A stretch of 64,000 bases of DNA from Atopobiaceae bacterium (GCA_022483015.1 JAKVOB010000001.1:806001-870000); one strand, 5' to 3'. Shown: positions 22,388 to 29,271, counted from the first letter of the stretch. Translations and numbers: made by a program. The notes: generated by a model not told the origin, from the sequence alone.

Positions 22388-24220
22388 CTAGTCCTTCTCG
22401 CCGAGGGACTCCAGGCCCAGGAGCGCCGCACCGATGGCCCCGCAGAGCTGCGAGTCCTCGTGCGTCGACACCTCGCTGCCCAGCACCTCGGACAGGGCTC
22501 GGACCACGCCCTCGTTGTTGGCCACGCCACCCGTCATGAGGTAGGGTGGCTCGGCCTTCACGCGCTTGGCGAGCGCCGCCGTCTTGGTGGCCACGGCGAC
22601 ATCGAGTCCGTGCACGATGTCAGGCACCGGGGTGTCGTCGGCCACGAGCGAGACGACCTCGCTCGTGGCGAACACGGTGCACATGTTCGAGATGCGCACC
22701 TCGTGCTTCCAGTCGAGTCCCGCCGCGCAGAACCCGTCGAGCGGCATCTCGAGGGTCGTGGCCATCATCTCGAGGAAGCGGCCGGTGCCTGCGGCGCACT
22801 TGTCGTTCATGACGAAGTTCACCACGGCGCCCGTGTCAGAGAGGTGGATGACCTTCGAGTCCTGGCCGCCGATGTCCACGATGGTCAGGGCCGAGGGGTC
22901 GAGGAAGTGGGCACCTGCGGCATGGCAGGTGATCTCGGTGATGGTGGTGTCCATGTTGGGGATGGCGTCGCGTCCGTAGCCGGTGGCCACGCTCACGGCC
23001 ATGTCGCCGCGCGAGAGGTGCGCCTGCTCCAGGACGGCCGCGATGGCCTTGGAAGCCCCTGCGGTGGCCTTGGCGCCGGTGGCCACGATGACGCTTGCCA
23101 CGAGCTCGGGCTCGCCGTCCTCGCCGATGTCCATGATGACGGCGTCGGTCGAGGTCGATCCTGAGTCGACGCCCAACACGTAGGTCTGGCCGTCGCCCGT
23201 GCGCTTGAGGGCTGCGCGGCCCTTGTCTGCCACGCCGTGCAGGGTCTCGTCAAAGGCGCGCAGGCGGGTGCGCAGCTGGCCAGCGCTTGCACGGGTGCCG
23301 TCGGTCTCGATCTTGAGCATCGGCGTGTGAGCCTCCTTGGCGGCCTCGAGGTACTCGAAGCCGTAGTAGTCGCAGAACTTCATGGTGTGATAGATGATGC
23401 CATCCTGGCCTGTGGCGCCTATGAGCGAGCGTCTGCCCGAGATGTCATCCATGCGCATGCAGGGGAGCTGGCCCAGGAGTACCGGGGCGTACCAGTCGAG
23501 GAAGGCGTCGAGGGGCGCCGCCTCCGGAGGGGTGGCGCCGGCGGTGGTGTCATCGGCTGCCTGCTCGTCCATGCAGTAGTCGCAGGTTCCGGTGCGCGGC
23601 GCGCGGCCCAGCTCGGGAGGGGGCGTCTCCATGAGGCGTGCGCCCGTGCAGGTGAGGTTCTCGAGCGGGAGCGACACCTGTGCGCCGCACGTGTCGAGGA
23701 GCGACGCCGAGGCATGGGCGCCCACGACGGAGATGTGCTCGTCCCGGCGGCGCGGCTTGGGCGGGAACGAGGCCACGGCTGCGCCGGCATCGAACTCGCA
23801 GCCGGTATAGGCCGCATAGGCGTCGGCCAGGCGGGCGAGCTCGTCGCGGAAGCGCCTCGCCTCGATGGGCCCACGCTTGTGGGGCAAGTCCACGAGGAAG
23901 AGGAAGTCGAGCTCGTCCGACGCCGCGAGGACGTCGTAGATGCGCCTGATGACGTCACAGCAGCTCGTGAGCACGAGGGCATGCACGTCCGGCTGCATGG
24001 CGAACGAGAGGAGCGACTTGCCGTAGCCGCAGAGGTTGGGATGGGCCAGGCGGTCTGCCTCCTCGAAGGAGGTGGCCTCATAGGCGACCGGTCGGCAGGT
24101 GGCCCCGAAGCCGGCCAGGAGCTCGGCGGGCACGTACTTGCAGGGATAGTAGACCACGCGGTCGTCGGAGGTCGTCGCAGGTGCCGTGGTCACGTCGGCC
24201 GGGATGTCCTTCTCGGTCAT
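22388..24220 (-). CDS. 2-hydroxyacyl-CoA dehydratase-like domain fused to ATP-dependent activase
   Basis: A 610-residue fusion. Residues 20-325 have the fold signature of dehydratase D-type subunits: Cys27, LCGYGKSLL, LTSCCDVIRR, LVDLPHKRGPIEA, GIIYHTMKFCDYYGFEY and MLKIETDGTRASAGQLRTR. Residues 345-605 are the BcrAD/BadF/HgdC-type activator: GVDSGSTSTDAV (phosphate loop), DIGGQDSKVI, NDKCAAGTGRF with Cys475 and SNMCTVFATSE with Cys514, the two expected ligands of the [4Fe-4S] cluster bridged across the dimer. Such activators hydrolyse ATP to inject one low-potential electron into a partner dehydratase or double-cubane reductase. Its ATG overlaps the upstream subunit stop by 4 bases (ATGA), after GAGGAGG. 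The substrate is unknown. Confidence 0.87.
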   Translation of the reverse strand: MTEKDIPADVTTAPATTSDDRVVYYPCKYVPAELLAGFGATCRPVAYEATSFEEADRLAHPNLCGYGKSLLSFAMQPDVHALVLTSCCDVIRRIYDVLAASDELDFLFLVDLPHKRGPIEARRFRDELARLADAYAAYTGCEFDAGAAVASFPPKPRRRDEHISVVGAHASASLLDTCGAQVSLPLENLTCTGARLMETPPPELGRAPRTGTCDYCMDEQAADDTTAGATPPEAAPLDAFLDWYAPVLLGQLPCMRMDDISGRRSLIGATGQDGIIYHTMKFCDYYGFEYLEAAKEAHTPMLKIETDGTRASAGQLRTRLRAFDETLHGVADKGRAALKRTGDGQTYVLGVDSGSTSTDAVIMDIGEDGEPELVASVIVATGAKATAGASKAIAAVLEQAHLSRGDMAVSVATGYGRDAIPNMDTTITEITCHAAGAHFLDPSALTIVDIGGQDSKVIHLSDTGAVVNFVMNDKCAAGTGRFLEMMATTLEMPLDGFCAAGLDWKHEVRISNMCTVFATSEVVSLVADDTPVPDIVHGLDVAVATKTAALAKRVKAEPPYLMTGGVANNEGVVRALSEVLGSEVSTHEDSQLCGAIGAALLGLESLGEKD

Positions 24221-25536
24221 CGGGATGCCTCCTCGTCCTTGCGTGCGCGGAGCATCTCGAGGAAGGCCCCCATGCGCGTGGCGATCTGGCCCTCGGGGCA
24301 GTTCGAGCGGTCGCAGCCGTCGCCGTCGAGCACGAGGGTGGGGAAGCCCGCGTCCTCCAGCTCTCGGCGCATGAGCTGCGAGACGCCCAAGGTCTCCTTG
24401 CAGCCCCAATGGCAGAAGACCACGGCGCCGTCGGCCTGGGTGCGCTCGCAGAGCTCGCGCACCCGGTCGATGCGACGCTCGCCCGGGCCGTTGAACGAGT
24501 TGCGGAGCAGCCGCTCGGCCATGGCCTCGAAGGGTCGCTCGGGACCGTAGCGCCAACCGTCGAAGGAGACCTGGTTGAAGCACATGTCCGAGGCGACGAT
24601 CTGTGCCACGGGTGAGTCGTCCAGCACCTTCTGGAGCGGCACCGAGAAGTACGGCGTGGAATGGGCCCAGACCAGGTTGAGACCCTCGTAGGGCTCGGCC
24701 GAGACGAGGTCCTCCTCCATCTGGTGGGCCATGCGCTCGGTCTGGGGGTGACCCAGCATGAGGTGGAGCGCCAGGGCCTCCTGCATCTCGAGGCCCATGT
24801 CGTTGTGGAGGAAGCGTCCATGGCGCAGGGGAAGCGTCCGCACCATGGCATCGAGCGTCGCCTGCGTGCGGGCCACGTACTGCGAGAGGAGCTCGCGGTC
24901 GAGCTTGCGACCAAAGCGGTCCTCGGCAAGTGCCGCCATCTCGCGGAGCTGGTCGGCCACGTAGGGGACCGACCCGTCCCCGGCCTCGAACGGCACATCG
25001 AGGTAGTAATGCTCGGTGCCGAGCGTCTTGGCGAGCCACTTGAACGTGATGTTGTTCGCGTCGCAGGCCACGGAGCAGTTCGCGATGAGCCTGGGCGCCT
25101 GGAGCACGCCGGTCTCGGCGGCCCCGATGAGGATCTTGTGGTACGAGCAGTACGTCTCGGGGACGCCGCGCTGCTCGGCCGCCTTCACGAAGCCCTGCTC
25201 GGAGCGTGCCCCGGTGAAGAAGTCCGAGATGGCCTCCGCCATGACAGGCTTGAGCCCCATGGCCATGAAGATCTCGTTGGGCAGGAAGATCGAGGTGATG
25301 ACGGAGTCGTCGGCGTCCTCCAGGGCGTCGGTCACGGCCTCGATGGCGATGCGCGCGCCGATGCGACCGCTCGGGAGCTTGCAGCGCTCGGGGAGATGGC
25401 GCACCTGGAACCGCTTGAACTGGAAGGCCATGGTCAGCCAGAAGCGGGCGGTGTCAGGGTCGTCCTCGTCGATGCCGTCCATGATGGAGCCGAAGTAGTC
25501 GAGGATGCGGATGCCAGGCTTGGTGTCGTCTGCCAC
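24217..25536 (-). CDS. 2-hydroxyacyl-CoA dehydratase/double-cubane-type Fe-S subunit
   Basis: A 439-residue partner of the downstream activase. Cysteines that could bind clusters are Cys52 (RCKLPSG), Cys130 (ETYCSYHK), Cys154 and Cys158 (ANCSVAC), Cys319 (SDMCFNQ), Cys375 and Cys379 (VFCHWGCKE), and Cys408 and Cys413 (GCDRSNC). The C-terminal VFCHWGCKETLG and GDGCDRSNCPEGQIATRM segments are typical of the HgdB/YjiM family. Known members dehydrate 2-hydroxyacyl-CoA or, as double-cubane cluster proteins, reduce small molecules. The GTG start at 25536 shares a base with the stop of the peptidase gene (TAGTG), so the three genes are coupled. Which reaction it performs cannot be told from sequence. 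Confidence 0.85.
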   Translation of the reverse strand: MADDTKPGIRILDYFGSIMDGIDEDDPDTARFWLTMAFQFKRFQVRHLPERCKLPSGRIGARIAIEAVTDALEDADDSVITSIFLPNEIFMAMGLKPVMAEAISDFFTGARSEQGFVKAAEQRGVPETYCSYHKILIGAAETGVLQAPRLIANCSVACDANNITFKWLAKTLGTEHYYLDVPFEAGDGSVPYVADQLREMAALAEDRFGRKLDRELLSQYVARTQATLDAMVRTLPLRHGRFLHNDMGLEMQEALALHLMLGHPQTERMAHQMEEDLVSAEPYEGLNLVWAHSTPYFSVPLQKVLDDSPVAQIVASDMCFNQVSFDGWRYGPERPFEAMAERLLRNSFNGPGERRIDRVRELCERTQADGAVVFCHWGCKETLGVSQLMRRELEDAGFPTLVLDGDGCDRSNCPEGQIATRMGAFLEMLRARKDEEASR

Positions 25537-28514
25537 TATGCCTGCCCCCCGGACTGGCTGCGCCCATCGTCCACGAGCTCCTGCACGTCGAGGTCGGCCG
25601 AGGAGGCGGCGATGACGTCGCGACCGCCGAAGACGCAGGTGCCGCGGTGTTCGGGCAGCTGCGACAGCGGCCCGGCGAGCTTGCGTACGTCGTCGGCCGT
25701 GCAGTCGAGGAGCCCCTGCCTGATCTGGGAGCGCCATTGGGGTGTGCGTCCCGAGAGCCGCAGCGAGTCCTGCCTCCTGGCGAGGGCACGCGGCTTCACC
25801 GGTGCGTCGTGGCCTGCCACGGCCGAGACCACGTAGCCATCGAGCTCCGAGGTGGTGGGCTCCCAGGAGGCGAGCCATGCGGAGGCTCCCTCGAACCGTG
25901 CGATCGTGGGGTCGACGGCGGGGTCACGGTACGAGTAGAACTGCAGCTGCGAGAGGGGCGTGCACCTGAAGCCGCAGCCGTAGGCGCCGCCCAGCACACG
26001 TACCTCGTTCCAAAGGTAGTCGAACGAGAGCGCACGTCCCGCCACGAGCCAGGGGCCGCTGATCGTCTCGCCGAGGGCGCTCGCGTCCATGCCCTCGCCC
26101 ACGTAGCAGACGTCGGACGGGACCACGAAGGCCTCGCTGGTGGACGTGGCAGGTGGGACCTCGAGGACGTCGAACGGATGGTGCTCGTCGTCGAGTCCGA
26201 GGTCGCCGGCGGCCTTCCAGTAGCGGGCGCGGTCCTCGGGCGTGCCGGTGAGGCTCGCCTCGGCCCCATCCGTGCAGAAGACGCGGCCGCAGATGTTGTA
26301 GCAGATCTCGGTGAGGCCCTGGAAGCGCTCGTCGAAGTTCGCGAGGAGCCGCTTGAGGAAGCGGTAGTAGTCCACGCCGCCCATCTGCTGGGCAACGCGT
26401 GCGGGCGCACTCGTGTAGGAGGCCACGCGTGAGAGGGCCGCCGTGTGCCCTGCCGAGACGAATCCCTGCTCGAGGGCGATGCGGCGCTGGGTCAGGATGG
26501 CACGGATGCGCTCCTTGTCGGAAAAGAGCGTCTTGCCCCAGACCTCTGCAGGGAGGGTCGCCAGGGCATCCACGTTCTCGGACAGCGCGCTTGCCGAGAC
26601 CACGAGGCGCGGGCGGGCGACCGTGGGGTCGGCGTCGTCGCCGTACGTCTCGCAGAAGAAGTCGAGGTTGCCGAGGTCGGTCTCGACCAGGGTGTCGAGC
26701 TGCTCGGCCGTGTGGACCTTGGTGTCGAGCTGGCCCAGGAGGCTCGTGAGCACGCTCACGTAGGGCAGCTCGGCCCAGTGCAGGCACGACAGGTCGAAGT
26801 AGAGGTAGGCGTAGTCGATGTGGTGCGTGGGTATGTCGTGCGCGTGGCTCGGCACCGGGGTGCCCTGCTCAGGCGTGCAGGCAGGCTCCGGTGCGACATC
26901 GCCGATGTCAGCCACGGTGAGGCGTGGGAGGGTGGCGAGGGCCTCGGGCGAGTCGGGTGCGGACTGCTCGGCATGGAGGGCAGCCGTCTCGGCCACGCAG
27001 GCCTCGACGTCGGCATCGTCCATGGCGGCACGCGCGGAGGCCAGGCGCGTCGCCTCGGGGTTGTCCTTCTCCTTGGCGATGGGTTCGAGCTCGACCTGAG
27101 CATGGTGGTCGCTCTGGCAGACCAGTTCGGCGAGGAGGTGCTCGAACAGGCCCTTGTCCAGGCCCTCGCGCAGGTGGGCGAGGGTGTCCTCGTAGCGCAG
27201 GTAGTCGCAGGAGGCACCGTCGTCATAGAGCCAGCCGCTCAGGGCGTTCATGGCCAGCGCCACGCCGTCCGGGTAGCCATAGTCACCCTCGCGCAGGTTG
27301 AACTCGGCCTGGGCGAGGGAGGCGGCCAGGTTGTCATGGCCGAGGCCCTCCTGCGAGAGGCGCTCGCAGGTGGACTCCACCAAGGTGCGGAACTCGTCGC
27401 CCACACCCTCGTGCGCTCCCTTGAGCTCGATGAACACGAAGGGCTGGAGGCACCCGTCGCTGAGCATGCCCACCACGTCGTCGCCGAGGTGGGCGTCGAG
27501 GATGGCACGCTTCAACGGGGCCTCGTTCGAGCCGAGAAGGGCGTCGAGAAGGATGTCCGCGGCAAGCACCCGCTCGGGGTCATGGCTCGTGCCGATGACA
27601 TAGGCCAGGCCCACGGCAGCGTTGTCGGGGGAGGTGGCCATCTCGACATGGCGGGTCAGCGGCGTGACGGGGTCCTGCAGCTGCAGGGGGTTGGGAGCGC
27701 CGACGTCCGTGCGCACCGCGCCGAGGAGGGCGTCGTCGACGAGGCCCAGGAAGTGGTCGACGTCAAGGTTGCCGTAGAGGGTCACGTAGGAGTTGGAGGG
27801 CTGGTAGTGGCGGGCATGCGTGTCGAGGAACTTCTCGTAGGTGAGGTCGGGAATGGTGTCGGGGTGCCCTCCCGACTCGCAGGCGTAGCAGGTGTCGGGG
27901 AAGAGGGCGCGGCTCATCTCGAGGTACATGACATCATCGGGGTCGGAGAGCGCGCCCTTCATCTCGTTCAGGACCACGCCGTTGAGCGAGAGGTCGGCGT
28001 CCTTCTCGGCAAGCTCGTAGTGCCATCCCTCCTGCTCGAAGATCCGCGGGCGGTGCGTGATGGCAGGATGGAAGACGGCGTCGAGGTAGACCTCCATGAG
28101 GTTCTCGAGGTCCTGGGCGTTGGTGGAGGCCACGGGGTACATGGTCTTGTCGGGGAAGGTGAGGGCGTTCAGGAACGTCTGCATGCTCGTCTTGAGCAGG
28201 TTGACGAACGGCTCCTTCACGGGATAGCGGTCAGACCCGCAGAGCACCGAGTGCTCGAGGATGTGGAAGACGCCGGTGTCGTCGGTGGGAGGGGTCTTGA
28301 AGGCGATGGAGAAGGCCTTGTTGGTGTCGGCGCAGGCGAGCCACAACGCGCGTGCGCCGGTGGCGACGTGGCGCAGGACGTAGGCGCTACCGTCGATCTC
28401 GGGCAGGGGGTCGGCTGACTCCACCACGAAGCCGGCATGGGTGGTGCCGGGTGCCATCGAGGGTGCGGGGGTCAGGAACGGCGTGGCAGTGCCACGCGGG
28501 GAATCTTCGGCCAT
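25536..28514 (-). CDS. M16C zinc metallopeptidase (PreP/insulinase family)
   Basis: A 992-residue peptidase of presequence-protease size. The inverted zinc motif HILEH is at residues 84-88 (His84, Glu87, His88), with the distal acidic ligand expected in the GVVLNEMKGALSD segment; FINAL-type features KTSMQTFLNALTFPDKTMYPVAS are also present. There is no signal peptide, so it probably acts on short unfolded peptides in the cytoplasm. The ATG at 28514 has GAAAGG upstream; longer frames add arginine-rich residues. Its last codon overlaps the first of the dehydratase-type subunit, so peptidase and Fe-S genes are made from one message. Confidence 0.9.
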   Translation of the reverse strand: MAEDSPRGTATPFLTPAPSMAPGTTHAGFVVESADPLPEIDGSAYVLRHVATGARALWLACADTNKAFSIAFKTPPTDDTGVFHILEHSVLCGSDRYPVKEPFVNLLKTSMQTFLNALTFPDKTMYPVASTNAQDLENLMEVYLDAVFHPAITHRPRIFEQEGWHYELAEKDADLSLNGVVLNEMKGALSDPDDVMYLEMSRALFPDTCYACESGGHPDTIPDLTYEKFLDTHARHYQPSNSYVTLYGNLDVDHFLGLVDDALLGAVRTDVGAPNPLQLQDPVTPLTRHVEMATSPDNAAVGLAYVIGTSHDPERVLAADILLDALLGSNEAPLKRAILDAHLGDDVVGMLSDGCLQPFVFIELKGAHEGVGDEFRTLVESTCERLSQEGLGHDNLAASLAQAEFNLREGDYGYPDGVALAMNALSGWLYDDGASCDYLRYEDTLAHLREGLDKGLFEHLLAELVCQSDHHAQVELEPIAKEKDNPEATRLASARAAMDDADVEACVAETAALHAEQSAPDSPEALATLPRLTVADIGDVAPEPACTPEQGTPVPSHAHDIPTHHIDYAYLYFDLSCLHWAELPYVSVLTSLLGQLDTKVHTAEQLDTLVETDLGNLDFFCETYGDDADPTVARPRLVVSASALSENVDALATLPAEVWGKTLFSDKERIRAILTQRRIALEQGFVSAGHTAALSRVASYTSAPARVAQQMGGVDYYRFLKRLLANFDERFQGLTEICYNICGRVFCTDGAEASLTGTPEDRARYWKAAGDLGLDDEHHPFDVLEVPPATSTSEAFVVPSDVCYVGEGMDASALGETISGPWLVAGRALSFDYLWNEVRVLGGAYGCGFRCTPLSQLQFYSYRDPAVDPTIARFEGASAWLASWEPTTSELDGYVVSAVAGHDAPVKPRALARRQDSLRLSGRTPQWRSQIRQGLLDCTADDVRKLAGPLSQLPEHRGTCVFGGRDVIAASSADLDVQELVDDGRSQSGGQA

Positions 28515-28662
28515 GAGGTGCCTTTCGCGCGTGCCCGCAGGGCGGGCGGATGTTTGACAGGTCGATTGTACCCTCTGGGAGAGGGGACGCTTGCAGCGAC
28601 GGCCCGGCTCGTGGGGGCTACACTGTTCCGCGGCATCCATCCGGCGGGGTAGGGGAGCACAC

Positions 28663-29271
28663 GTGGGCATCGAAGACATCGACATCCGCATGGCGACCAT
28701 CGAGGACGCGCCTGCCCTCCTGGCCATCTATGCCCCCTATGTGACCGAGACCGCCATCAGCTTCGAGTGTCAGGTCCCGAGCGTGGACGAGTTCACCTCG
28801 CGCATGGAGGCGACCTTCGCGCGCTATCCCTACCTGGTCGCCGAGCTGAGCTCTACGGGCAGACCCGTGGGCTATGCCTACACGAGCGCCTTCGTGGGCC
28901 GTGCCGCCTACGACTGGTCGGCCGAGACGTCCATCTACGTTGATCGCAGGACCCGCCACCACGGTGTGGGCGGGGCGCTCTACCAGGTCCTCGAGGCGGC
29001 ATCGCGGGCGCAGGGAATCTTGAACCTCAACGCCTGCATCGGCTATCCGGCCGAGGCGGGCGACGGGCACCTGACCACCAACAGCGTCGACTTCCACGCG
29101 CACCTGGGATATTCGATGGTCGGCCGCTTCCACGCGAGCGGCTACAAGTTCGGCACCTGGTATGACATGGTCTGGATGGAGAAGATGCTTGGGCCCCACC
29201 CGTCGGAGCCCACACCCTTCGTGCCCTTTCCCTGTCTCCCGGCATCCGCACGGGCTACACTTGCCCTATGA
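28663..29271 (+). CDS. GNAT acetyltransferase (phosphinothricin acetyltransferase-like)
   Basis: A 202-residue GNAT protein. It opens IRMATIEDAPALLAIYAPYV and has ETAISFECQVPS, as in the Pat/PhnO group, then the acetyl-CoA loop RRTRHHGVGGALY and late FHAHLGYSMVGRFHASGYKFG. The group N-acetylates amines such as phosphinothricin or methionine derivatives; the substrate here is unknown. GTG 28663 has GGGGAG upstream and fits the family start. The C-terminal 30 residues are Pro-rich and unusual. The end overlaps a possible ATG of the next gene. Confidence 0.8.
   Translation: MGIEDIDIRMATIEDAPALLAIYAPYVTETAISFECQVPSVDEFTSRMEATFARYPYLVAELSSTGRPVGYAYTSAFVGRAAYDWSAETSIYVDRRTRHHGVGGALYQVLEAASRAQGILNLNACIGYPAEAGDGHLTTNSVDFHAHLGYSMVGRFHASGYKFGTWYDMVWMEKMLGPHPSEPTPFVPFPCLPASARATLAL

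Follow-up and report, generated by a model that had tools for sequence, protein, structure and literature searches.

A fused activase and double-cubane-type subunit with a candidate catalytic partner: a putative self-contained Fe-S reductase of gut bacteria

Described relatives and layout of the locus

In the Bzd benzoyl-CoA reductase, a heterodimer joins BzdN, in which six cysteines (Cys36, 73, 100, 263, 293 and 327) hold an [8Fe-9S] cluster, to BzdO, in which three cysteines (Cys95, 128 and 380) hold the catalytic [4Fe-4S] cluster, and BadF-type ATPases (BzdP/BzdQ) drive this heterodimer (PMC11971306). The active site of BzdO further contains the catalytic residues Glu65 and His131 and a ring-facing Trp46 (PMC11971306). 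The double-cubane protein DCCP is organized differently, as a homodimer with a cluster in each monomer (PMC11971306). Like the 2-hydroxyacyl-CoA dehydratase systems HadBC/HadI and HgdAB/HgdC, it has a separate activator.

The locus analyzed here belongs to a gut-type anaerobe (Atopobiaceae bacterium) and lies in a window, the whole stretch of DNA under study, of 64,000 nucleotides. It consists of two overlapping minus-strand genes, P2 followed by P1, preceded by a peptidase gene:

25536-28727, minus strand: M16C/PreP-type peptidase gene, upstream of P2
24217..25536, minus strand: P2, 439 amino acids, GTG start, full HGD-D domain, alpha-type (putatively catalytic) subunit
22388..24220, minus strand: P1, 610 amino acids, ATG start, double-cubane-type subunit fused to an activase

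The stop codon of P2 and the start codon of P1 share the ATGA at 24217-24220, in agreement with an earlier note on this DNA, which had described a second Fe-S subunit as translationally coupled. The GTG of P2 and the stop of the PreP-type gene overlap by one base, and the three genes are thus coupled head-to-tail. The P1 frame is open upstream of its ATG, the whole open frame comprising 883 amino acids. Both frames are kept in dozens of genomes at 29-78% identity, which is far beyond chance. P2 matches the HGD-D family (PF06050) over its full length (1.7e-57, 196 bits) and P1 matches it in two stretches (7e-30, 105.1 bits), both above the curated cut-off of 28.4 bits. A genome search returned no other HGD-D protein, and the only other activase-like protein found in the genome is a DUF2229 protein of 1609 amino acids. 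Such DUF2229 CoA-enzyme-activase proteins (about 1600 amino acids) share BadF-type ATPase domains with P1, but they combine two ATPase stretches with DUF2229 and, at the threshold applied, do not match HGD-D, and P1 was rejected as a member of this group.

P1 and P2 resemble each described system in part. Like BzdN/BzdO, the N-terminal domain of P1 (P1-N) and P2 pair a six-cysteine with a three-cysteine pattern, and a BadF-type ATPase putatively drives the pair. Unlike in the Bzd system, the activase is fused to the double-cubane subunit, a single activase type is present and the beta subunit is shortened. DCCP and DCCP-R (NF040772) share with P1-N the sequence pattern of all six aligned cysteines, but here this pattern occurs in one of two different subunits. 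The dehydratases share the HadB fold and three cluster cysteines with P2 and an HgdC-type activase with P1, yet their beta side has three cysteines instead of six. We propose, with a probability of about 0.7, that P1 and P2 constitute a complete, self-contained, ATP-driven low-potential Fe-S reductase. The earlier note had suggested a reductase of either dehydratase or double-cubane type; its self-contained character is retained, but the pair is closer to BzdN/BzdO. The gut family with its fused injector would represent a second heterodimeric double-cubane layout. It also offers a single construct that locks injector and cluster into a 1:1 ratio, of use in structural and EPR studies. In the open-licence literature, no described substrate, name or account of the P1 fusion was found.

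The two halves of P1

P1 combines the following elements:

23237..24175, minus strand: residues 16-328 (domain at about residues 16-330), shortened HGD-D domain of double-cubane type
24140..24142, minus strand: Cys27, first putative [8Fe-9S] ligand, aligned with Cys79 of a DCCP relative
24029..24031, minus strand: Cys64, putative [8Fe-9S] ligand, aligned with DCCP-relative Cys117
23957..23959, minus strand: Cys88, putative [8Fe-9S] ligand, aligned with DCCP-relative Cys147
23648..23650, minus strand: Cys191, putative [8Fe-9S] ligand, aligned with DCCP-relative Cys312
23459..23461, minus strand: Cys254, putative [8Fe-9S] ligand, aligned with DCCP-relative Cys345
23372..23374, minus strand: Cys283 in the KFCD motif, putative [8Fe-9S] ligand, aligned with DCCP-relative Cys378
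22403..23185, minus strand: residues 346-606, full BadF/HgdC-type ATP-dependent activase (PF01869, BcrAD_BadFG, 2e-58)
22796..22798, minus strand: Cys475, predicted activase cluster ligand at the position of HgdC Cys127 by alignment to 1hux, invariant
22679..22681, minus strand: Cys514, predicted activase cluster ligand at the position of HgdC Cys166 by alignment to 1hux, invariant

P1-N lacks the middle third of the Pfam HGD-D profile; in profile comparisons with solved structures, it comes closest to DCCP (8e-23). Seven cysteines (Cys27, 64, 87, 88, 191, 254 and 283) are invariant in all 53 sequences compared, and a profile-profile alignment pairs all of them except Cys87 with the six invariant cysteines of double-cubane relatives. 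In a joint alignment, P1-N shares 6/6 cluster cysteines with double-cubane proteins and with BcrC/BzdN-like subunits (a label given by tree position and cysteine pattern), whereas the HadC-like beta subunits of dehydratases have 3/6. The aligned BzdN fragments carry the later part of the P1-N cysteine pattern, including KFCD. By fold, the matches of the P1-N model (P1 pLDDT 86.8) to DCCP (Z 23.9), BzdN (23.7) and HadC (23.2) are a tie among the best matches listed, so the double-cubane assignment rests on the cysteine pattern. On this basis, P1-N should bind the rare [8Fe-9S] double-cubane cluster. The neighbour of Cys88, Cys87 (23960-23962), is invariant in the fused family (53/53) and is replaced by Thr in double-cubane relatives.

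The activase half exceeds the cut-offs of both PF01869 (198.5 versus 31.5 bits) and TIGR00241 (228.2 versus 125.4 bits), and its model superimposes on HgdC (1hux) with Z 37.7 and rmsd 1.3. The presence of HGD-D and BcrAD_BadFG matches in P1 confirms the earlier reading of an activase and a D-type subunit in one chain.

P2 as the candidate catalytic subunit

Four residues of P2 correspond to the catalytic acid and the cluster ligands of BzdO:

25234..25236, minus strand: Glu101, at the position of the BzdO catalytic acid Glu65 in HadB and HadB-like alignments, 56/56
25147..25149, minus strand: Cys130 in CSYH, putative catalytic [4Fe-4S] ligand, BzdO Cys95, 56/56
25063..25065, minus strand: Cys158, putative catalytic [4Fe-4S] ligand, BzdO Cys128, 56/56
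24400..24402, minus strand: Cys379 in HWGCK, putative catalytic [4Fe-4S] ligand, BzdO Cys380, 56/56

This single-cluster pattern matches the single cluster of BzdO. The first double-cubane cysteine is missing from P2, with Ser82 at its position and Asn in five of the 56 sequences. With six cysteines invariant in P1-N and three in P2, the cluster cysteines are retained as previously claimed, and no cluster ligand was found to be lost upon alignment.

The surroundings of the putative cluster differ from those in benzoyl-CoA reductase. The position of BzdO His131 is occupied by Asn161 in all 56 sequences according to an ungapped fit of CDANN to CCSHS, which was judged better than the HMMER alignment with its gap at this site, and Phe84 takes the position of Trp46. 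From the residue set of class I benzoyl-CoA reductases, P2 thus keeps the Glu and has both His131 and Trp46 replaced, so benzoyl-CoA-type chemistry is unsupported. His133 (in CSYH), Asn161 and His376-Trp377 (in HWGC) do not occur at these positions in HadB/BcrB-like and double-cubane references; the substrate is therefore probably none of those of the reference enzymes. Judged by sequence comparison, the active-site signature CS[YF]H and HWGC is novel. Tyr132 sits at the place of BzdO Tyr97, which contacts the thioester oxygen, and this position is Phe in 3/56 P2 sequences and in all nine sister sequences. From the Tyr132 position, a weak hint, and the likeness to HadB and BzdO, our leading guess for the substrate is an acyl thioester.

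The predicted model of P2 (pLDDT 92.4) is closest to HadB (Z 36.5, rmsd 2.7 over 375 residues) and BzdO (Z 34.9) and weaker against DCCP (Z 28.1) among the best matches listed. A tree computed by quick search for 76 rows, midpoint-rooted and without bootstrap, places P2 with the HadB/BcrB-like alpha subunits and P1-N with the DCCP and HadC-like (DCCP/BzdN/HadC) subunits, each as a clade of its own with SH-aLRT 100, and so separates P2 on the alpha side of the superfamily from P1-N on the beta side. The two D-type parts are not equivalent, a point that sharpens the earlier note: the fused part has the six-cysteine double-cubane pattern, the partner the three-cysteine catalytic one. Scores lie far below the cut-off of every curated equivalog scored, with 63.2 (P1) and 58.1 (P2) bits against 350 for DCCP (NF040772), and for P2 32 of 448.6 bits for bzdO and 31.3 of 486.6 bits for bcrB. 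By tree and family scores, neither subunit falls inside a known substrate class, in line with the earlier note, which had assigned no substrate.

The proximity to HadB raises the question of an atypical 2-hydroxyacyl-CoA dehydratase, in which P1-N would hold a single [4Fe-4S] or [4Fe-5S] cluster, water would be removed and the activase would be fused for convenience. We consider this unlikely. The best fold match and a profile match of P2 are to HadB, and the P1-N fold also matches HadC, yet six double-cubane cysteines are kept in P1-N where HadC-like subunits have three, and the scores stay far short of the equivalog cut-offs, at 37.5 bits for HadB (cut-off 750) and 26.1 bits for HadC (cut-off 700). 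In addition, the scan of flanking genes showed no CoA-transferase, ETF or acyl-CoA dehydrogenase family; over the ten adjacent frames that were covered, this bears out the earlier remark that no CoA-transferase or ETF gene is nearby.

Distribution, neighbourhood and proposed mechanism

A scan of one GTDB genome per species yielded 515 loci encoding P2 relatives, the best 80 of which were analyzed. These 80 belong to Coriobacteria (Olsenella, Tractidigestivibacter, Parafannyhessea and others) and to gut Bacillota, among them Flavonifractor, Intestinimonas, Anaerotignum and Lachnospiraceae; in the host's own family, P1 orthologues are found in many genera at 60-75% identity. Of these 80 loci, 77 have P2 immediately followed by a single open frame that contains both P1 halves. 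Of the other three, two are truncated where a contig ends, and the third has P1 divided between two neighbouring frames. This recurrence led us to dismiss a sequencing or frameshift artefact as the origin of the fusion.

The wide spread of the fusion and the existence of related three-gene versions are additions to the earlier note. Among 398 genomes sampled from the phylum to which one Bacillota locus belongs, 70 have a P2-type match (E of 1e-60 or better), counting fused and three-gene forms together. The layout is common in gut bacteria, which suggests that they carry out a low-potential reaction still to be assigned. These 70 genomes divide into a strong set of 28 and a weaker set of 42. 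In eight of the nine weaker-set loci read (L211-L217, L221), beta, alpha and activase are each encoded by a gene of their own; in the ninth (L218:6385-9533), beta and alpha form one chain of 790 amino acids and the activase is separate. These unnamed operons share with P2/P1 the alpha signature (CSFH, mostly HWGC) and the six-cysteine beta subunit, but the genes are separate and the beta subunit is of full length, the exception being one with an unaligned N-terminus. Where checked, they too score below the curated equivalog cut-offs. Since this Bacillota sister group encodes the corresponding parts in three genes, the fusion is most likely derived, in the direction of beta joining the activase and losing its mid-region. 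Two lower-scoring strong-set loci were also read: L219 is fused, and L220 (7984-12013) has a disrupted P1, with P2 followed by an activase frame that carries only part of the N-domain.

Neighbourhood mining of homologous loci revealed no partner or pathway gene conserved across phyla. PreP lies upstream in 28/29 coriobacterial loci versus 0/44 Bacillota loci and its linkage is therefore probably just synteny, and the Bacillota neighbours include XerD-type recombinase, DNA ligase and Rrf2 genes. These housekeeping neighbours, together with the mostly single copy and apparently vertical inheritance, would suit a maturation or repair factor that delivers low-potential electrons to a different protein or cofactor. 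Such a role is very unlikely, as P2 has active-site-like invariant residues around its putative cluster, like its substrate-reducing relatives, and no target gene is linked.

In a relative with a 1.0-Mb genome (L206:3150-8104), P1 comes directly after PreP, the intervening P2 being absent, and keeps all six double-cubane cysteines. Such a P1, the close profile match of P1-N to DCCP and the absence of pathway neighbours are compatible with a functional double-cubane protein, i.e., an enzyme that reduces small molecules (acetylene, azide or hydrazine type) or one for stress or detoxification, with catalysis at the double cubane and P2 mainly as a partner. This possibility seems doubtful, because DCCP is a homodimer with a cluster per monomer whereas P2 lacks the first cysteine, and nearly all genomes retain P2, with its Glu, His and three Cys unchanged, which suggests that P2 is catalytic.

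The self-contained reductase is the most economical reading of P1 and P2; the domain composition, the conserved patterns of cysteines, the matches by fold, the tree placement and the lack of conserved partner pathway genes are direct observations, from which we infer the clusters, electron path, oligomeric state and substrate. In the proposed mechanism, the activase half of P1 would dimerise around a shared [4Fe-4S] cluster and accept an electron from ferredoxin or flavodoxin. ATP binding and hydrolysis would then pass the electron to the [8Fe-9S] double cubane in the N-terminal half of P1, which may store electrons and relay them to the three-cysteine, open-site [4Fe-4S] cluster of P2. At this cluster a radical mechanism would bring about reduction or dehydration of the substrate. 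Glu101 would be the likely proton donor, and His133, Asn161 and His376-Trp377 would take the place of the residues used by benzoyl-CoA reductase.

The number of P2 genes per P1 varies. A tandem P2-P2-P1 arrangement is present in several Olsenella-type genomes (L071, L072, L073, L091 and L093), the second P2 frame of L093 being incomplete. Five related genomes have a single P1 and a second, distant P2 paralogue that is 32-36% identical, keeps all cluster and active-site residues and has no adjoining P1 (L202:8550-9842, L203:8811-10208, L204:8988-10256, L200:2608-3870 and L201:2530-3819). Because of these tandem and distant extra copies, one could speculate that P1, with ATPase and double cubane in one chain, serves as a portable power supply for interchangeable catalytic subunits, each P2 reducing a different undescribed substrate of gut anaerobes, although we regard this as rather improbable. 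The neighbours of the solitary P2 genes give no common hint at a substrate; one has a nitroreductase nearby, and another lies near pyruvate kinase and 2-hydroxyacid dehydrogenase genes.
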